From Verrucomicrobiota bacterium (GTDB lineage: Bacteria; Verrucomicrobiota; Verrucomicrobiia; Chthoniobacterales; UBA10450): a stretch of DNA of 53,741 bases. Both the position numbers and the translations under genes were made by a program. The notes beneath the pieces were generated by a model that worked only from the letters and a program-made list of their open reading frames with translations, was not told the origin of the DNA and did no database searches. Each line of letters starts with the position of its first letter. Positions within the stretch are counted from its first letter, which is position 1. The stretch lies in contig QHQA01000015.1 in NCBI GenBank assembly GCA_003219695.1, forward strand, positions 1 through 53,741, given 5' to 3'. Positions 6,977 through 42,964 of the stretch are shown piece by piece.

Positions 6977-7312
6977 GAATGACGAAATTCGAATGATGAA
7001 TGCCAAATTAATCACGAATTCCGAAGGCTGTGGATCGCTGTCTCCGGAGCGCCGGGATATAGCCAACAAAGGCTGCGCAAAGGTGGAACGCGTTGTCCTC
7101 AACGCGTTGCAAAAAACTGCGGCGTTGCCGCCTGATATCTGTGCCTTCGGCGGGCCGACACCCATCGTCTTCAGAGAAGCCGATCCACCTTGGGTCAGGG
7201 GCCGTTATCCGCTGACGACACCCGAGGCTGCAACATTAATTCGTCATTGCTTCAGGCTTCGTCATTTGGTCATTCCTTCGTCATTAGAGATTCGTCATTC
7301 GTCATTTTACTG
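6977..7312. repeat. repeat-dense gap between sigma and kinase genes
   Basis: This stretch between the sigma gene and kinase holds no credible gene. Its ends carry GAATGACGAA-type sequence on the left and an inverted series of TTCGTCATT units on the right (about 7240-7308). Inside is a perfect 9-bp hairpin, AACGCGTTG-TCCT-CAACGCGTT, at 7087-7108. It looks like nested short palindromic elements. Confidence 0.5.
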
Positions 7313-7348: not shown

Positions 7349-10300
7349 ATGCCGCAAATAGGTAACAGCGCCCGTGTTTGCGAAACCTGCGGGTCGCCTA
7401 TTGAGACGACTTCTGCGGGCGACCTGGGTTGCATTGCCTGTTTGATCGGTACCGGTTTGGATGTTGAGGCAGAGCAAAGTGATACCGCATTTACTTCGGC
7501 ACCGGATCAATTGGGTGCTTATACGATCGAGCATCATGCGGATGGTAGTGCATGGGAGCTGGGTCATGGCGCGATGGGAGTCACTTATCACGCCATCGAT
7601 AGGGCGCTCGATCGCCCCGTCGCGCTAAAAATCATCAACACTGATCGCGGGTCGCGCAGCGCAGAAGCGCGCGAGCGATTCATGCGCGAAGCGCGCGCAG
7701 CAGGAGCGCTGCGCCACCCGAACGTGGCGACCGTGTACCAATTCGGCGTTCGCGAGCAAACCGGTCAATTCTTTTACGCGATGGAGCTGGTCGAGGACGA
7801 AACGCTCGAGGAACGCGTCCGCCGTTTGGGACCCCTCGATGTTCTCACAACAATCGACATCGCTCTGCAAGTGACCGCGGCGCTGGAGGCAGCGGAAGAG
7901 CGCGGATTGGTACATCGCGATTTAAAGCCCGGCAACCTAATGTTGGTCAAGACGGGCGATGGCATGGTAGGGATCCCGCAGTCACGGGACGCCGCCCGGT
8001 GCGCTCGGCGAGCGCGCCCTAGCAACGTATGCGTGAAAGTGATCGATTTCGGCGTGGCCAAAGCGGTGGCGGAGAAAACGAATGCGATGGCACTCACGCA
8101 CGGCGGATTCGTCGGCACTCCGGCATTTGCGAGTCCGGAGCAATTTAGCGATGCGCCCGTCGATGTGCGCTCGGACATTTACTCGTTAGGCGCAACACTT
8201 TGGTTCTTGCTGACCGGCTATCTGCTTTTCAGTGGCCGAACGATTGAGGAGATTCAAGCGGCGCGCCGATCAAAGCCATTGCCGATTGAGCAATTGAAAG
8301 CCGCGCACGTTCCGCGTCGCTTCATTTCGTTGCTGACATCAATGCTGGCGATTGAACCGGCCGCGCGTCCTGCTGGCGCGCGCGAGCTCAGCGCGAGATT
8401 GCAGGCAATTCGCGCTTCGATTATCGGCCGAGGCAAAACCGCAGGACGAGTCGCGCTTGCCGCTGCAATTGTTGCTCTGGCGACAATCGTTGCTGTCCGC
8501 GTATTCCATTCATCCGGGATGAAGGCTACGCCGTCCCTCATCCCCGAAAAAAGCATCGCCGTGCTTCCGTTTGAAAACTTAAGCCGCGACTCGGACAGCG
8601 CCTATTTCGCAGACGGCATACAGGAGGAGATCCTGACCCGCCTGGCGAAGATCGCGGATCTCAAAGTAATTTCGCGCACTTCCACGCAGCGCTACCAGAG
8701 TAAGCCTCGCAATCTCGGCGAAATCGCGAAGCAGCTTGGCGTAGCGAACATTTTGGAAGGCAGTGTTCAAAAGATAGCCGATCAAGTGCGCGTCAATGTG
8801 CAGTTGATTAACGCGCAAACTGATTCGCATCTCTGGGCCGAGACCTATGATCGGAAGCTCACTGATATATTTGGCGTTGAGAGCGAGATCGCCAAAGGGA
8901 TAGCGGAGTTGTTGCAGGCGAAGCTAACCGGTCGCGAGGAGCAGGCGTTAGCAGTTAAACCAACAAACAATCCTGAGGCTTACGATGCTTATCTGCGCGG
9001 CCTGGCTTTTCAAGCACGCAACGACTCCCCCTCCCCTTCTGTCAATCTGCTAACGAGAGCCAGCGATTTTTATCAGCGGGCGGTGCAGCTTGATCCTAAT
9101 TTCGCGATTGCTTGGGCGCGACTTTCTCGCGTGGACGCGCAAATCTACTGGAGCCTCACTACTTCCGCCGCTCGACGCGACGCAGCAAAACGTGCTTTGG
9201 AGAATGCACGGAAGCTGGAGCCTAACTCGCCTGAAACCCTCCTCGCCTTGGGTTATTATCAATTCTGGGCGCTGCGGGACTACGGAGCTGCCAAAACCAC
9301 GTTCAGTCGTGTCAGCAAGATGCTGCCAGGCAGCAGCGACGTACCATGGGGCTTAGCCCGAATTACTGAACACGAGGGACAGTGGGACCAATGCATCGAT
9401 TACATCGAGCAAGCACTCACCCTCGACCCACGGAACATAGGGTTACTCATGGATGCGGCATCGGACTACGGCGAAGTTCGACAATTTCCGACCGCGCTAA
9501 AGCTCTATGATCGAGCGCTGGACATTATGCCAAATGATCAGGGCGTGATGGCGGGCAAGGTCAGCATTTATCAGGCTCAGGGTAATCTGCAAGAGGCCGC
9601 CAGGCTCGTATCAGAAATAATCGGACCGACTTATAATGAGGACACCCTTCGCGTCAAGCTCACGCACTTGAGACTCGAACGAAATTACGGTGAGGCTGTT
9701 CGATTGCTGCAAGCCCAGCTGACTCAGTTCCAAGCCGAGTCCGAGTACGATAAGGGCTGGGAGCAAGTGGCGCTTGCTTTGATGCAGCGCTTTGCCGGCG
9801 ATACGGCTGGCGCAACGGTTACGGCTGAACAGGCGCGCAATACACTTGAGCAGCTCCATAGAGATCAACCAGACAACTCCGTCTTCGCGGCATGGCTGTC
9901 TCAAGCTTATGCTGTGATAGGGGAAAGGGACTCGGCGTTAAAGCTAGCGGCGTATGCAATCATGCTTAATCCCCGTGCTAAAGATCATGTCAACGGACCT
10001 TGGTTAGAAGAGAACCAGGCTTTCATTCAGACGATGTTCGGCGAGAACAGCCGTGCGATCTCGACTCTGACCGGCCTGTTGCAAACGCCTTATGGTAGCA
10101 TGATTTCCAGCATAGCTCCCATTACGGCAGCCCTTCTTAGGCTTGATCCGATCTGGGATCCGTTGCGCAGCGACCCGAGCTTCCAAGATCTTTGCAAAGA
10201 TAAGCTCGAAAAAAGCATCGCTGTGCTGCCATTCGAAAACTTAAGCCGCGACCCGGACAACGCTTATTTTGCGGAAGGTATTCAGGAAGAGATCCTGACG

Positions 10301-11878
10301 CGGCTGGCTAAGATCGCGGATTTGAAGGTGATTTCGCGTGCATCCACGTCCCGCTATAAGAGCAAGCCAGACAACCTGTCCGAGATCGCCAGGCAGCTTG
10401 GCGTAGCGAACATTCTTGAGGGGAGTGTGCAAAAAGCAGCCGATCAGGTGCGCGTTAATGTGCAGTTGATTAACGCGCAAACTGATTCCCATCTTTGGGC
10501 AGATACCTACGACCGAAAGCTGACTGACTTCCTGGGTGTAGAGAGTGAGATCGCCAAAGGAATAGCGGAGTCGTTACAGGCAAAGCTAACCGGTCGCGAG
10601 GAGCAGGCGTTAGCCGTTAAACCGACGAACAATGCGGAGGCTTACGATGCATATCTGCGTGGCCTGGCCTTTCAGACGCGCAACCGCTTCTCCATTGATA
10701 CGCAAAGGAAAGCCGCCGGCTTTTATGAGCGGGCGGTGCAGCTCGACCCTAATTTTGCGCTTGCCTGGGCGCGCCTTTCTCGCGCAGACGGCCTAATATA
10801 CCTGAACCACGCCGACAATTCTTACGCTGCCCGGGCTGGTGCAGCGAAGCGAGCTTTGGAGAATGCGCAGAGACTGGAGCCGAACTCAGCTCAAACGCAG
10901 CTTGCCTTAGGTTATTACCAATGTCAGGTGCTTGTTGATTACGAGTCTGCCAAAATCACGTTCGAGCAGGTTCGCAAGATGTTACCAAGCAACAGCGAGG
11001 TACTGTTTGCCCTCGGCTCAGTTACTAAACGCGAGGGGCAATGGGATGACAGCGTTGCCTATTTGCAGCAAGCCCTTGCCCTGGACCCAGGCAACGTGAA
11101 CTACCTGACGGACGTGGCAGGGACTTACGCCATGCTTCGACAATTGCCCGCGGCGCTAGAGTTCTATGATCGAACGCTGGAGGTTACGCCATACGATCCC
11201 GATGTGATGGCGAAAAAGGCAGCCATTTATCAGGCCCAAGGTAACCTGCAAGAAGCCGCCAGCCTCCTCTCTGAAATAAATCCGCTGACTCTCACTGAGC
11301 AAGGCTTCGCAATCAAGCTGTCGCAGTTGAAACTTGAACGAAATTACACTGAGGCCGTTCGATTGCTGCAAGCCCGACAAGCTCAATTTCATTTTGGTTC
11401 TCAATTTGCCAAGCTCCATGAGCAGGTGGCGCTTGCTTTGACGCAGCGCCTTGCCGGCGACACCGCCGGCGGCGCGGCTACCGCGGACCAGGCACGCCAG
11501 ACATTTGAGGAACTCTACAATAACCAACCAGACAACTTCGTCTTTGCGGCAAACCTGTCTCAAGCGTATGCTGCGATGGGGGACAAGGAGTCGGCGCTTA
11601 AGGCAGCAGAGCGTGCAGTAATGCTGTTGCCTACTGATAAAGATCGAGTGAACGGACCGACGCTCGAACACAACCTGGCGTTGATCCAGACGATTTTCGG
11701 CGAGACCAGCCGGCCGATCTCAACTCTCAGGCAGCTGCTACAAACGCCATATAATGCGGCGGGTTGGCTTCACGGCCCACTGCCCGTTACGCCAGCGCTT
11801 CTTAGGCTCGATCCCTTCTGGGATCCTTTGCGCGGCGATCCCGCTTTCCAAAAACTCTGCGAGGAAAAGCAGCCGTGA
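7349..11878 (+). CDS. Ser/Thr protein kinase with duplicated TolB/FlgO-like plus TPR sensor half
   Basis: A 1509-aa membrane kinase. The start at ATG 7349 is set by the GAGGAG ribosome site 12-7 bases upstream; the frame is open further up without homology. Order: Cys4 zinc-ribbon-like motif (C11, C14, C28, C31); Hanks-type kinase with glycine loop GHGAMG (72-77), VALK lysine, HRDLKPGN (about 189) and DFG (233); one transmembrane helix at about 367-387; then two copies of a 554-aa unit. Each unit begins with EKSIAVLPFENLSRD, a domain seen in CadC/adenylate-cyclase-like regulators, then has many TPRs. Residues 206-225, between HRD and DFG, are an in-frame palindromic repeat insertion. Likely partner of the upstream ECF sigma factor; substrate unknown. 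Confidence 0.9.
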   Translation: MPQIGNSARVCETCGSPIETTSAGDLGCIACLIGTGLDVEAEQSDTAFTSAPDQLGAYTIEHHADGSAWELGHGAMGVTYHAIDRALDRPVALKIINTDRGSRSAEARERFMREARAAGALRHPNVATVYQFGVREQTGQFFYAMELVEDETLEERVRRLGPLDVLTTIDIALQVTAALEAAEERGLVHRDLKPGNLMLVKTGDGMVGIPQSRDAARCARRARPSNVCVKVIDFGVAKAVAEKTNAMALTHGGFVGTPAFASPEQFSDAPVDVRSDIYSLGATLWFLLTGYLLFSGRTIEEIQAARRSKPLPIEQLKAAHVPRRFISLLTSMLAIEPAARPAGARELSARLQAIRASIIGRGKTAGRVALAAAIVALATIVAVRVFHSSGMKATPSLIPEKSIAVLPFENLSRDSDSAYFADGIQEEILTRLAKIADLKVISRTSTQRYQSKPRNLGEIAKQLGVANILEGSVQKIADQVRVNVQLINAQTDSHLWAETYDRKLTDIFGVESEIAKGIAELLQAKLTGREEQALAVKPTNNPEAYDAYLRGLAFQARNDSPSPSVNLLTRASDFYQRAVQLDPNFAIAWARLSRVDAQIYWSLTTSAARRDAAKRALENARKLEPNSPETLLALGYYQFWALRDYGAAKTTFSRVSKMLPGSSDVPWGLARITEHEGQWDQCIDYIEQALTLDPRNIGLLMDAASDYGEVRQFPTALKLYDRALDIMPNDQGVMAGKVSIYQAQGNLQEAARLVSEIIGPTYNEDTLRVKLTHLRLERNYGEAVRLLQAQLTQFQAESEYDKGWEQVALALMQRFAGDTAGATVTAEQARNTLEQLHRDQPDNSVFAAWLSQAYAVIGERDSALKLAAYAIMLNPRAKDHVNGPWLEENQAFIQTMFGENSRAISTLTGLLQTPYGSMISSIAPITAALLRLDPIWDPLRSDPSFQDLCKDKLEKSIAVLPFENLSRDPDNAYFAEGIQEEILTRLAKIADLKVISRASTSRYKSKPDNLSEIARQLGVANILEGSVQKAADQVRVNVQLINAQTDSHLWADTYDRKLTDFLGVESEIAKGIAESLQAKLTGREEQALAVKPTNNAEAYDAYLRGLAFQTRNRFSIDTQRKAAGFYERAVQLDPNFALAWARLSRADGLIYLNHADNSYAARAGAAKRALENAQRLEPNSAQTQLALGYYQCQVLVDYESAKITFEQVRKMLPSNSEVLFALGSVTKREGQWDDSVAYLQQALALDPGNVNYLTDVAGTYAMLRQLPAALEFYDRTLEVTPYDPDVMAKKAAIYQAQGNLQEAASLLSEINPLTLTEQGFAIKLSQLKLERNYTEAVRLLQARQAQFHFGSQFAKLHEQVALALTQRLAGDTAGGAATADQARQTFEELYNNQPDNFVFAANLSQAYAAMGDKESALKAAERAVMLLPTDKDRVNGPTLEHNLALIQTIFGETSRPISTLRQLLQTPYNAAGWLHGPLPVTPALLRLDPFWDPLRGDPAFQKLCEEKQP
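7964..8023 (+). repeat. 60-bp palindromic repeat inserted in frame in the kinase catalytic loop
   Basis: Codes for 20 residues (MVGIPQSRDAARCARRARPS) that interrupt an otherwise normal HRDLKPGN...VKVIDFG stretch. The DNA has near-inverted ends (TGGTAGGG / CCCTAGCA, 7 of 8 pairs) and two internal stems (CCCG..CGGG and GCGCTC-GGC-GAGCGC). This is how intergenic repeats of such genomes look, not how kinase sequence looks. Confidence 0.7.
8546..11878 (+). repeat. tandem in-frame duplication, period 1662 bp
   Basis: The segment 8546-10207 recurs as 10208-11878 in the same frame (554 codons). Both copies begin GAAAAAAGCATCG and both end with a DPxFQxLC motif. The first 110 bases agree at roughly 80-85% by eye; the TPR parts diverge more. 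Confidence 0.9.
11840..11878 (+). repeat. kinase 3'-end tag, copy A (native)
   Basis: The last 39 bases of the kinase gene, coding PAFQKLCEEKQP-stop. Copies B (12502-12540) and C (14265-14300) lie downstream as detached fragments. A and B agree at 33 of 39 positions. Confidence 0.75.
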
Positions 11879-37940: not shown

Positions 37941-38225
37941 GGAATCTCAGAGAACAGAGTGGCAACGCTTTCTCGCGAATAAACGAAGCATGGCTGCCGT
38001 CAAACTCTGCCACTCAAATCAGCGTAACACCGACTGTAAACAATGCGATCCGAGATTGCCTCTGCCGAAAGTCACACAAGTTCTTGCAATCTCGCCGGAT
38101 TTCCTCTCTCCGGCGCGCTTCCTACTGGCAGGGCTATTCCGGAGCCAAAAGCTAGCTACAGGGCGAGTCCATCCGAATGGCGGACTTTCGCGAGCAATCG
38201 AGCTACCTTCTGCGATTATGATGTG
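37941..38225. other. 285-base gap with repeat
   Basis: No credible gene. At 38155-38187 it holds GTCCATCCGAATGGCGGACTT, the second copy of the repeat at 1796-1829. The remainder is featureless to me. Confidence 0.5.
38155..38187. repeat. GTCC-N-TCCGA-N-TGGCGGACTT repeat, second copy
   Basis: Matches 1796-1829. Here it lies about 40 bases before the glycosyltransferase start, where it may influence transcription or simply be tolerated. Confidence 0.6.
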
Positions 38226-39503
38226 ATGACCCGCTTGCGGTGGTTGCTCAAGCCTGTGCTCGCGGGATTAACGGTGACGCTGCTGCAGCTTGCAATGGCA
38301 GTGGGCCTGCTTGCGCCGGAGGGACCTGTGTCGGATCGCTACTCGGCGCTCATCCAGCACGATAGCTATTGGTTCATGAACATCATCAATCGCGGGTACC
38401 AGACCATTGTCCCGCCTATCGATCACAAGGTGATGGAAGTGTCAAATGTCGCGTTTTTCCCGGCTTATCCTGCGATTGCCGCGCTGTTTCGCTATGGACT
38501 CAACATCGACACTGGCATTGCGCTCCTGATTACCGCCCAACTCGCTGCCTGGGGATTCTGGATTTATTTTTTCCTGTTGTGCAAACGCTGGAACATTTCG
38601 CTGGCGCTCCAGACTTGCGGCGCATCACTAATCGCCGCGCATCCGGCAGCGTTCTTTTTAGTCGCCGGCTATTCAGAATCGCTGTTTCTAATGGCGCTGC
38701 TGGGATTCATTTACTGGAGCAGTGCGGACGGGCGCGCTGCGAAAGTCTTAGGGGCGATGCACGGGATCCTTATGTCCGCAGCGCGAATCGTGGGCATCGT
38801 ATGCGCCGCTTTTCCTTTGGTGTGTGCGGTTTTTCAAACTGGATGGCGCAGCTTACTCAAGCCACGAAGGTGGGTTCGAGAGCACAGGCCGGCGATCGGT
38901 GTGACAATTGCGGCGATGTGCGGTGCTATCGTGTTTTTCGCTTATTGTCAGCTCCGCTGGGGTCATTGGGACTTGTACATGCTCACGCAGGCAGCCGGCT
39001 GGGGCATCGTTGCCGATTATCTGGCGGTGTTTAAGCCCTCTAGTTATCGCTGGCTCCTCCCCGCGCTAAATAATCCGACCGAGGTGAGCCAAATGGCGAT
39101 GACGCTGGGTGCATTGCTCTTTGTCGCTATTGCGCTTTGCGAGTTGGTCGTGGGGTTCCAGCGCGCCCCCGCCGCGGCGGGTAAACTGTGGTCGCGCCCT
39201 ACCACACTCTGGGATCGAACTAACTGGGGGATGCGCGCTGGCATCTATTTCTGCGCAGCCGTCATCTATTATCTTTCGGTCAGCGGCGTGGCCTGCGTGG
39301 ATATGGAAAGCATGCTCCGCTACGAATTTTCCGTGCACGCGTTGATCGTGCTGGCGCTTTTGAATTTCCTGCGTCAATTTCGTACGCCGCCGATGCTCAT
39401 GCGGGCATTCGGCATCGCGGCAGTGGCGTTCCTGAGCGCTGCTGGGTTGTGCGTACAGGGCTGGTACGTCTGGAATTTCACCCGGGGCAATTGGGTTGCG
39501 TAG
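38226..39503 (+). CDS. GT-C type membrane glycosyltransferase (PIG-V/mannosyltransferase-like)
   Basis: A 426-aa protein with about ten transmembrane helices. ATG 38226 (MTRLRWLLKPVLAGLTVTLL) gives a natural first membrane segment; the frame is open to 38043 through repeat DNA. The first extracytoplasmic loop reads LIQHDSYWFMNIINRGYQTI, a D-x-x-W-F/Y-x-x-I-x-x-x-G-Y pattern that matches the PIG-V/GT-C lipid-linked sugar transferases. FFPAYPAIAALFRYGLNID and SAARIVGIVCA also fit. Sugar and acceptor unknown. Only 6 bases separate it from the flavoprotein gene, so the two form an envelope-glycan operon. Confidence 0.8.
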   Translation: MTRLRWLLKPVLAGLTVTLLQLAMAVGLLAPEGPVSDRYSALIQHDSYWFMNIINRGYQTIVPPIDHKVMEVSNVAFFPAYPAIAALFRYGLNIDTGIALLITAQLAAWGFWIYFFLLCKRWNISLALQTCGASLIAAHPAAFFLVAGYSESLFLMALLGFIYWSSADGRAAKVLGAMHGILMSAARIVGIVCAAFPLVCAVFQTGWRSLLKPRRWVREHRPAIGVTIAAMCGAIVFFAYCQLRWGHWDLYMLTQAAGWGIVADYLAVFKPSSYRWLLPALNNPTEVSQMAMTLGALLFVAIALCELVVGFQRAPAAAGKLWSRPTTLWDRTNWGMRAGIYFCAAVIYYLSVSGVACVDMESMLRYEFSVHALIVLALLNFLRQFRTPPMLMRAFGIAAVAFLSAAGLCVQGWYVWNFTRGNWVA

Positions 39504-39509
39504 AGGAAG

Positions 39510-41030
39510 ATGAAAACAAAAGTCGCCATTATCGGTGCCGGACCAGCGGGTTTGACCGCCGGCTATCTTCTTTCGAAGGAGGACGCGGACGTCATCGTTC
39601 TCGAGGCCGATCCGGTTTACGTCGGCGGCATTTCCCGCACCGTCACCTACAACGGTTTTCACTTCGACATCGGCGGGCACCGTTTCTTCTCCAAATCCAA
39701 AGCGGTCGAAGATCTCTGGACGGAGATTTTGCCTGACCACATGCTGGTGCGCGCGCGCTCGTCGCGCATTTTTTACGGCGGCAAATTTTTCTCGTATCCG
39801 CTGAAGCCGGTCGAAGCGCTGCTCAAGCTCGGCGTATTCAGGTCCACGCTTTGCATCCTTTCGTGGCTGAAAGCGCGCCTGTTTCCGGTGCGAAACCCGC
39901 GCAACTTCGAAGAGTGGGTGAGCAATCAATTCGGCAAACGGCTCTTTAACACGTTCTTCAAGAGCTATACCGAAAAAGTCTGGGGAATGAGCTGCAAGGA
40001 AATCTCCGCTGATTGGGCCGCGCAGCGCATCAAAGGCCTGTCGTTAGGCAGCGCCATCAAGAACGCGCTGATTCCGCAGCGCTACAATGGCGACCGGAGC
40101 AAAGTCATCAAGACGCTCATCCATTCGTTCCGTTATCCGAGGCGAGGTCCCGGCATGATGTGGGAATCATGCGCGGAAAAAATGCAGGCGCTGGGCGGCA
40201 AACTCGAAATGGGCTGCAGAGTAGCTCGGTGTTCCTACTATGAAACGTCCGGCACCTGGACGGTCGAATACAAAGATCGAAAAGGCGACATGCAAGCGAT
40301 CGAGGCAGAGCACGTGATTTCATCCGCACCGATGCGCGAACTCGTTTGCGGTTTATCGCCCGCTGTGAGCGAGCGAGCGAAACGGGCAGCCGAAAGTCTC
40401 AAGTATCGCGACTTCCTCACAGTGATGTTGATCCTGAAAGACCGACAGATGTTCGATGACAACTGGATTTACATTCATGATCCGAGCGTGAAAGTGGGCC
40501 GTGTCCAGAACTTTCGTTCCTGGTCGCCGGAGATGGTGCCCGAGCAAGACAAGGTTTGCTACGGCCTCGAATATTTCTGCTTTGAGCACGACGGCCTCTG
40601 GGACTCCAGCGACAGCGACTTGATCGAGCTCGCCAGGCGCGAATTGATTCAGATTGGTCTGGCCAAGCAACGCGATTTCATCGATGGCTGTGTCGTTCGC
40701 CAAAAAAAAGCGTATCCGGTTTACGACGACGATTACGCGCGCCACGTCGCGACGATCCGCCATGAGCTGGAGACGCGTTATCCAAACCTGCACTTGGTTG
40801 GCCGCAACGGCATGCACAAATACAACAACCAGGACCACGCCATGATGACGGCGATGTTGTGCGTGGAGAATATTCTGGCCGAAGCCAAACTCTACGACCT
40901 CTGGCAGGTCAACAGTGACGCCGAATACCACGAACAAGGCCCTGCCGTGGCTGAAGAAACAAGCGGCTCCGCATTACGCCTGGTGCCGACCCGCGTAGTC
41001 GCCGCCCCTGAGCTCGCCCCGGAAGCTTAG
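39510..41030 (+). CDS. FAD-dependent oxidoreductase, UDP-galactopyranose-mutase/amine-oxidase-like
   Basis: A 506-aa flavoprotein. Rossmann motif [18 protein letters not shown] with EAD at the second strand binds FAD, then [20 protein letters not shown] and [12 protein letters not shown], seen in UGM-like proteins. [20 protein letters not shown] and [17 protein letters not shown] follow, and [19 protein letters not shown] closes the FAD site. This family often sits in polysaccharide clusters and is annotated as NAD(P)/FAD-dependent oxidoreductase; a true ring-contracting mutase is not proven. Cotranscribed with the membrane glycosyltransferase 6 bases upstream. No signal peptide. Confidence 0.85.
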
Positions 41031-41187: not shown

Positions 41188-41335
41188 GCGTCCCGTAGCG
41201 CAGACTTCCAAGTCTGCCGTAGCGCGGGTTTCCAAACCCGCAGAGGGTTCAAGGTCGCACACCCTGCCGATTTGGAAATCGGCGATACAGGAGGTCCGCC
41301 ACGGCGGATTCGTCCTGTGACGAATTGAGAAACCT
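41188..41335. repeat. cluster of palindromic repeats (GTAGCGC and CCGCCACGGCGG families)
   Basis: Successive stems: AGACTTCCAAGTCT, GCGGGTTTCCAAACCCGC, CCGATTTGGAAATCGG and TCCGCCACGGCGGA (41295-41308) followed by TTCGTCC. The last unit recurs inside parB at 43190-43210. GTAGCGC recurs three times at 41190-41225, and its inverse GCGCTAC lies at 41335. Confidence 0.8.
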
Positions 41336-41353
41336 GCGCTACGGAAACAAAAC

Positions 41354-41433: not shown

Positions 41434-42684
41434 TTATCGATTCTCTACCACTCGGGGCGCCGGCTTGACCATTTCAAGCTGGGCACTCACTTTTTGGATT
41501 TGGGTGGCCTGCTCCTTGAGCTGGGCTGTGAAAGTCTCTGCCTGCTCTTTGAGCTGGGCTGTGAGAGTCTCTATTTGTTTCTGTTGCTGCGCGACCGTTG
41601 CTTGCAACTTCTCAACTTTGTCATAGAGCATGGCTTGGTGCTGAAGACCGGGGCGCGCGGCAGGTTGCGGTGCGCTACGACGTTGAGGTGCGCTACGAGG
41701 CGCAGGCATGCTACGAGGCTGGGTGCTCGGGCCAAAATCCCAGCCAAGGTGGTCGTCCAAAAGGTTCAGAGTAACTTGAACAACATTGACGCCGTCAACA
41801 GGCTGGAAGTTATTGAAGATACCACCGATGTAGCACTCTAAGGACCCGCCGTTCCCGTTCGAGAGGTCGTTGATGCGGATCGTACTGCTTTCGTCGCCGA
41901 CGGTGAAACCAACGAAGTTGCCGATGTAAGTGTTATTGAAGCCAGCGACCAAGTTTTGTCCTGTCGAATCACCCACAGCTGTGTTGTCACTGCCATCACC
42001 GTTGTTGAGGAGCGTCGCAAAGCCAACTGCCGTGTTGCCGTTGCCAAGGCCGAGTCCGGAGGAGTCATTACTCACGAGCGCCTCATCACCAATGGCAGTG
42101 TTTGCAACGCCGATAATATTTGCAAAAAGCGCCGAATTGCCCAAAGCGTTGTTGCTGTATCCGCCTGCGACGCTGGATGCGTTGCCGTCGTTGTTAAACA
42201 GCGCGAAGGCGCCGACCGCGTTGTTGAAGCTTCCGCTAAACTCGCCTGCGCCGCCGGCATTAAAGACCAGCGCGTCTGTTCCAACCGCCACGTTTTGAGT
42301 GCCGGTCGTCAACCCAGTGCCGGCGGTGTTGAGCAAGAGCGCTACAGTGCCAACTGCGGTATTGGAATCCGCATTGTTGAGGATCAGCGCTCCGGCGCCG
42401 ACGCCGACGTTGTAGTTGGCGGTCGTATCCGAGAAGAGCGAATACCAACCGAGTCCTGTGTTCCCCAAGCCAGTGCTGAGGAAACTAAGGGCGCCGCAGC
42501 CTTCCGCTGTGGTGAAGTTGGAATAGCACCCGTCGGGTGCCGGACTGACTGCCTGCATTTGCGGCAAAACCGCAAATGACACCAGAACAAGCGGGATGAG
42601 AAGGAACCCGCGCCGTAACGGCAGCGGGCGAGCCGGTTCTCGTCCGCATGAAACTAACGTTTTAAGTTGAGTGAGTGAATCCAT
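41434..42684 (-). CDS. secreted beta-roll repeat protein with C-terminal coiled coil
   Basis: A 416-aa exported surface protein. ATG 42684 (MDSLTQLKTLVSC) is chosen because a signal-anchor follows (RRGFLLIPLVLVSFAVLPQM). Residues about 60-280 are NTAVG/NVAVG-type repeats of about 14-25 residues (SNTAVGTVALLLNTAG, NNAVGAFALFNNDG, NTAIGDEALVSN, NTAVGFATLLNNG). This is the left-handed roll of YadA heads and phage fibres. A unit with STIRINDLSNGNGGSLECYI and YIGGIFN follows, then a Pro/Arg linker and heptads (QKQIETLTAQLKEQAETFTA, repeated). No membrane-anchor beta-barrel is present, so it is not a full trimeric autotransporter. Strong terminator downstream. Confidence 0.85.
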   Translation of the reverse strand: MDSLTQLKTLVSCGREPARPLPLRRGFLLIPLVLVSFAVLPQMQAVSPAPDGCYSNFTTAEGCGALSFLSTGLGNTGLGWYSLFSDTTANYNVGVGAGALILNNADSNTAVGTVALLLNTAGTGLTTGTQNVAVGTDALVFNAGGAGEFSGSFNNAVGAFALFNNDGNASSVAGGYSNNALGNSALFANIIGVANTAIGDEALVSNDSSGLGLGNGNTAVGFATLLNNGDGSDNTAVGDSTGQNLVAGFNNTYIGNFVGFTVGDESSTIRINDLSNGNGGSLECYIGGIFNNFQPVDGVNVVQVTLNLLDDHLGWDFGPSTQPRSMPAPRSAPQRRSAPQPAARPGLQHQAMLYDKVEKLQATVAQQQKQIETLTAQLKEQAETFTAQLKEQATQIQKVSAQLEMVKPAPRVVENR

Positions 42685-42964
42685 GGGATGTGTTCTTTCT
42701 CTTTCCCGGTGGTGTTTGTTTGTTTTTTTGGTTTTCACTGGGCTTCGAACAGACAAAGAACCCTACCGGGCAAAAGTCCTTTTTCTGTTTTGGAGCCAGT
42801 CGCCGTGATACTGAATTTCAATCATGAATGTCAATACTTTTTTTAAAAATTCTTTTATTGGGCGGCTCCCGCGCAGTTGGGAAGGCTGGCGAACTGGTAC
42901 GGCACCACACTGTCGTACAGATTGCTGTTTGCGTTGATAAGTCTGTTCCGGTAGCCTCAGACGC

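Follow-up and report, generated by a model that had tools for sequence, protein, structure and literature searches.

A GTAG-tagged REP doublet in frame within a PknB-like kinase gene of a Verrucomicrobiota bacterium

How does a palindromic repeat come to lie within the coding sequence of a protein kinase, and what does it do to the protein? The question is raised by a 53,741-nucleotide stretch of DNA (hereafter the window) from a soil bacterium of the order Chthoniobacterales (Verrucomicrobiota), in which a gene for a Ser/Thr protein kinase with a C-terminal TPR region (7349-11878, + strand; ATG at 7349, the mechanically called open reading frame starting at 7190) was predicted to hold a palindromic element in frame. 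The sequence proved to be as described, with small corrections, and the frame is kept. The account that we favor, with a probability of about 0.85, is that a GTAG-tagged REP dimer (REPIN), from a family found at about a hundred places in the genome, was inserted in frame in the β7-β8 turn of this PknB-like kinase and survived as a tolerated insertion. The locus illustrates clearly how mobile-type palindromes of bacteria can turn into protein sequence with the gene not visibly ruined.

The palindrome and its repeat family

The element is a GTAG-type REP dimer of 58 nt at 7966-8023 (+ strand), in frame and part of the kinase loop; the 60 bp originally assigned to it (7964-8023) exceed its true extent by two bases. 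It opens with GGTAGGG and closes with CCCTAGC, the tags being inverted with one mismatch, and its ends are near-inverted, with 7 of 8 bases shared between TGGTAGGG and the reverse complement of CCCTAGCA. The left half-REP (7966-7989, + strand) consists of an exact GGTAGGG tag and the hairpin TCCCG-CAGTCA-CGGGA at 7974-7989; it belongs to a subtype with four copies in the genome and, scored with the half-REP model R1 described below, did not reach a match. The right half-REP (7998-8023, - strand), whose tag GCTAGGG differs by one change, has a hairpin with 10-nt arms (7998-8007 and 8009-8018) that are 90% complementary, and matches R1 with 24.5 bits (E 0.0039 in the window), seven of the eight pairs being standard. 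The inverted doublet is seen in both halves by eye and in one by the model, and the copy is diverged, its 24.5 bits comparing with a family maximum of 44.1.

The near-inverted ends and the two stems of the original prediction are present, but the fold energy is unremarkable. For the isolated 60 bases, the DNA fold is not exceptional for the composition (z -0.79; 45 of 200 shuffles as good) and neither is the RNA fold, in which two hairpins are seen (z -1.57; 12 of 200 shuffles as good). These values rule out an exceptional fold energy as evidence. Since a fold that is ordinary for its composition proves nothing alone, the evidence for the feature is its recurrence in the genome.

This draft genome amounts to 3.14 Mb in 224 contigs, with a contamination value of 4.49. 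With a 78-nt query, seven more matches were found in it at E <= 0.001, none of them full-length. The type of the left half, GGTARGGATYNCGCNGT, occurs four times including the window copy, and exact dimers of the form GGTAGGG-N30-55-CCCTACC occur 32 times, each search giving 0 with the reversed control. Alignment A1 was drawn from 24 of the 32 exact dimers, which supplied 30 distinct halves, one of which was omitted because it has no hairpin in register; the remaining 29 sequences, with eight pairs, gave the covariance model R1. The tag is invariant in A1, but the members were picked by this tag. In the stem, 92.7% of 232 cells are paired, 57 cells are altered on both sides (19.1 on average in shuffles), and the covariation score is 0.683, whereas slid partners give 0.188 at most. 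Of five measures, three lie above every one of 500 shuffles, which establishes compensatory variation for the family; the other two (pairs changed on both sides, and further pair types) do not.

Scanning the genome with R1 gave 139 half-sites at 97 places, a lower bound for a family of high copy number, as the best 150 of 3,711 candidates were scored; matches near E 1 may be due to chance. At 42 of the 97 places two R1 matches lie together, each time as a +/- pair. Further copies of the element thus exist at both coding and non-coding sites, as the 32 exact dimers and 139 half-sites attest. By its tag, hairpin covariation, dimer form and copy number, the window palindrome belongs to a genome-wide GTAG-tagged REP family in REPIN form, and the reading frame is open through it. 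Among 97 genomes drawn from the order Chthoniobacterales, 39 contain at least one exact dimer; single dimer matches are at the control level (up to three per genome), and 19 of the 97 genomes have five or more. The REP stems vary from family to family across these genomes.

The genome also contains 14 matches to Y1_Tnp, 12 of them above the Pfam cut-off. An R1 site lies within about 1.5 kb of five of the 14 loci (1.3 expected, P 0.008), two of these five (L076 and L077) being below the cut-off. The H-x-H motif was found by frame scan in five Y1_Tnp loci, among which only L068 has an R1 site nearby. In L077, a weak match at 1315-1856 (21.4 bits) is bracketed by inverted half-REPs, possibly as the remnant of a REPtron. 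E. coli TnpA-REP is described as recognizing GTAG-tagged single-stranded REP and cleaving at a CT next to the repeat (PMC8266576). For the window REPIN, the probable agent of insertion is a REP-associated tyrosine transposase (RAYT) with the single-stranded tagged hairpin as its substrate.

The host kinase and the place of the insert

Active PknB-like kinases are marked by a Gly-rich loop, the VAxK Lys, HRD, DFG and (A/S)PE. The window kinase matches Pfam Pkinase with E 1.7e-37 and possesses all of these motifs, with SPE instead of APE. The catalytic loop HRDLKPGN (7913-7936, + strand) is intact upstream of the insert, and VKVIDFG (8033-8053, + strand), covering β8 and DFG, is intact downstream. 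Between HRDLKPGN and KVIDFG stand 33 codons (7937-8035, + strand) for strand β7 and the β7-β8 loop with the element. The loop is indeed longer than usual, as predicted, although the figure of 20 extra residues is approximate: the 33 residues compare with 16 in related kinases that lack an element, among them L025 and L081.

The original prediction had placed the element inside the catalytic loop. In a structure predicted with the insert included (a 305-residue construct, with an alignment of 16 rows; mean pLDDT 82, pTM 0.84), HRDLKPGN occupies residues 130-137, β7 138-141, β8 169-172 and DFG 174-176, and the low-confidence stretches of the loop (144-152 and 163-165) have pLDDT under 50. Compared with the PDB by sequence and by fold, the kinase matches PknB and PknA best, and in PknB only a few residues separate the stretches that match the window kinase. 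Taken together, the predicted strands and the comparison with PknB put the insert after HRDLKPGN, so that in the model it lengthens the β7-β8 turn, downstream of the catalytic loop. Among the kinases examined, the stretch from HRDxKPxN to KxxDFG ranges from 9 to 50 residues and is variable also where no element is recognized; the alignment with these relatives bore out that the 20 residues are not shared at the protein level.

The closest comparison is with the sister kinase C125, which also bears an element. Outside the loop, the kinase domains of C125 and the window kinase (C97) are 86.5% identical, with dN 0.075 and dS 0.757 over 267 codons. These values indicate that the kinase domain is under purifying selection, though part of the divergence between the sisters may predate the insertions. 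The original prediction expected the insert to change or abolish activity. Intact motifs and purifying selection speak against loss of kinase activity, and the insert is probably without important effect on the kinase. The insertion event itself is inferred from relatives.

Repeats inside genes and their recurrence in two loops

A codon-usage test found an open frame and coding flanks to either side at 18 of the 97 places, the lowest-scoring of these 18 being C83_10265 (22.4 bits, E 0.58); three have coding flanks on one strand with a frame not open through the element (neighboring genes or breaks), and 76 fail the test. Applied to random stretches at distances of about 140-700 bp from the elements, the same test assigned 537 of 1000 to genes (532 of 1000 in the window), so that REP elements are depleted in genes nearly threefold. 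In the copies that remain in genes the frame is mostly kept: if the three are counted as breaks, 18 of 21 are in frame (P 1e-6 against one third), bearing in mind that the test requires an open frame and undercounts genes already broken by insertion. Four places outside the 18 were inspected by hand (C22_21081, C56_48332, C100_38685 and C103_9338), and C103_9338 is not open through the element. Insertions that break the frame or the fold would mostly be purged, and the window insertion would have survived because its frame stayed open and the turn accepts extra residues.

Besides the C97 and C125 kinases, the in-gene hosts are 16 proteins with Pfam family matches, the gene names being a reading of their domains. 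They are of the Mfd type (UvrB_inter, CarD/TRCF, helicase), the RNase R type (RNB, S1), MutS, class I tRNA synthetase, formyltransferase (Fmt), LigD, pseudouridine synthase, amidohydrolase, GH3, an OpuAC/BPD transporter, FAD oxidase, the tryptophan halogenase/FAD type, the multicopper laccase type, LMF1, ResB and TPR. Elsewhere in the window, a second, degenerate half-REP at 39160-39203 (- strand; 18.1 bits, E 0.071) lies in frame inside the open reading frame 38043-39503 (+ strand), for which a Pfam search gave no match; it has 21 letters in the loop against three in the model. A palindrome-rich composite at 41194-41343 lies between the open reading frames 39510-41030 and 41434-42756, and at its start, 41197-41243, it resembles by sequence match the second of the element families in the C125 kinase loop.

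The genome has six kinase genes of this subfamily, including that of the window (E <= 1e-40), and three of the six carry GTAG-type palindromes of three families in the β7-β8 loop. The C97 loop holds the window REPIN family. The C125 loop holds the right half of this family, of a subtype different from that in C97, together with a second family, whose relatives begin GTAGCGCAGACTT and whose tag in C125 reads GGAG; the C89 loop holds a third GTAG-type family, TGTAGCCACCGGCC. That several REP families occupy the same loop of paralogous kinases is less expected than the REPIN itself. Two other genomes of the genus likewise have a REPIN of the window family in this loop, at L030 and L054, the latter kinase being present also as the named record L090. 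Because the L030 match has one in-frame TGA near its start and 27 unread residues after the loop, this copy may be broken. Inside its REPIN, in the G012 kinase loop, there is a further, repeat-like stretch at L030:1914-1995 (GCCCTGAGCGAAGTCGAACGGG). L115 groups with L054 in the kinase tree with a support of 96 (48 rows, all used), and its loop looks like a decayed element. In the same tree long loops cluster. The kinase loops of L078 and L122 are long with short internal repetition (SSSNDD, RKNAT), perhaps as another route to lengthening this loop. Fifteen of the 16 named loci encoding kinase relatives are metagenome bins of Verrucomicrobia, Spartobacteria or Chthoniobacterales.

When 55 kinase loci (217,646 bases) were scanned with R1, all six matches, in four genes, fell in the loop, which makes up 3,123 nt or 1.4% of this DNA; nine of the loci repeat other rows, and in three (L118, L119 and L254) no loop was placed by motif. 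The other 38 loci, four of them without a loop by motif, gave six matches, likewise all in the loop, as repeats of three of the same genes. Over all 93 loci, 12 of 12 model matches are in the β7-β8 loop, in four distinct genes, which are not independent, since L030 and L054 share flanking sequence and C97 and C125 are sisters. A fair count is two or three insertions of the window family and at least two of others. With 87% of the genome assumed to be coding, the chance that two of the 18 in-gene places fall in these loops is P about 2e-6 under uniform insertion, and P about 0.016 if no more than 1% of coding sequence can take an insert. Much of the clustering is therefore accounted for by permissiveness.

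MutS offers a second case. A recognizable REP is present at one loop site in eight of 26 loci of the genus (L265-L290), and all 13 matches are at that site; the window genome's own copy counts by construction, because the query was chosen for its REP. The comparison covers 26 of 27 loci, L291 being omitted for its short match, and the site was not placed by motif in L284 and L288. The loop is short and apparently empty in, for example, L277, L280-L282 and L286, and in L268 it appears decayed by eye but is in frame. The same position in the other seven loci suggests inheritance, with repeated insertion as the alternative.

Origin of the loop elements and comparison with known systems

The loop elements are most likely tolerated selfish insertions in a permissive loop. 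An adaptive origin, in which the β7-β8 turn is lengthened by peptides derived from REPs and often rich in Arg, so as to diversify docking or localization among the paralogues, insertions being favored, would account for the confinement of all R1 matches in kinase loci to the loop, for the presence of three GTAG-type families in three of the six subfamily kinases and for the clustering of long loops on the tree. However, the same clustering is predicted by a permissive loop, the encoded peptides differ and share no common motif by eye, the L115 loop looks decayed, and the structure of the loop is predicted with low confidence; we consider this origin unlikely. Less likely still is that the element acts at the RNA or DNA level, as an mRNA hairpin or a protein-binding site, with its coding role incidental: the RNA fold does show two hairpins, but it is ordinary for its composition, and related loops (MutS L268 and kinase L115) are still in frame although, judged by eye, their palindrome has gone. 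A chance palindrome or an assembly artefact, to which the 224 contigs, the contamination value and the weak folding z-scores might point, is scarcely credible in the face of family matches with a control of 0, a copy that is diverged and in this unlike a collapsed repeat, and REPINs in the same loop of two other genomes (L030 and L054).

The tolerated insertion could be part of a longer history, although we regard the following extension as doubtful. The β7-β8 turn, and one MutS loop, may be long-lived landing pads where unrelated GTAG-REP families insert repeatedly, also beside or into earlier elements; as their remnants decay, these would yield new protein sequence and diversify the paralogous kinases. 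Because both loops are filled, empty or decayed among related genomes, the conversion of selfish DNA into coding sequence, and the properties that make a loop permissive, can be studied on them as a natural series.

Elements of this kind are already known. The original prediction held that none had been described for the phylum, yet GTAG REPs within genes were published in 2013, in a survey where the verrucomicrobium Opitutus terrae ranked first for the number of intragenic GTAG repeats (Di Nocera et al., PMC3733652). The likeness to Rickettsia palindromic elements stands insofar as the window element, like RPE-4 and RPE-6, is an in-frame palindrome surviving in a gene likely to encode a functional protein. 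It does not extend to the class of RPE-4 and RPE-6, judged by the tag: the intragenic RPE-4 and RPE-6 of R. conorii are counted as CGTC repeats (PMC3733652), and the window tag is GTAG. On account of this tag and the prior report from O. terrae, the reading as an RPE in a new phylum was rejected. With the REPINs and RAYTs of PMC3116915 the window family shares the inverted REP doublet predicted to form hairpins, the many copies and the Y1 transposase genes in the genome; those doublets were studied in extragenic space, whereas 18 of the 97 places here are in genes.

The closest relatives are the GTAG REPs of PMC3733652, which have the same tag, stems mostly of 6-9 bp, dimers and locations inside open reading frames in the same phylum; their dimers encode 20-30 residues. 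The hosts found here resemble those listed there, which include repair genes, tRNA synthetase and pseudouridine synthase. In the main text of that paper, as distinct from its Additional file 3 with the target open reading frames, MutS does not appear and the word kinase occurs once, in the title of a reference, which names the insertion of a repeat into the guanylate kinase of R. conorii. Among the best-ranked matches of a literature search, no title or abstract start mentioned GTAG REPs in the kinase β7-β8 loop, and only PMC3733652 links REPs with Verrucomicrobia. It also provides a partial precedent, in that different REPs lie at about the same recB site in two Xanthomonas species. What differs from the account given there is that a single loop, in a family of paralogous kinases, is occupied here by several REP families.
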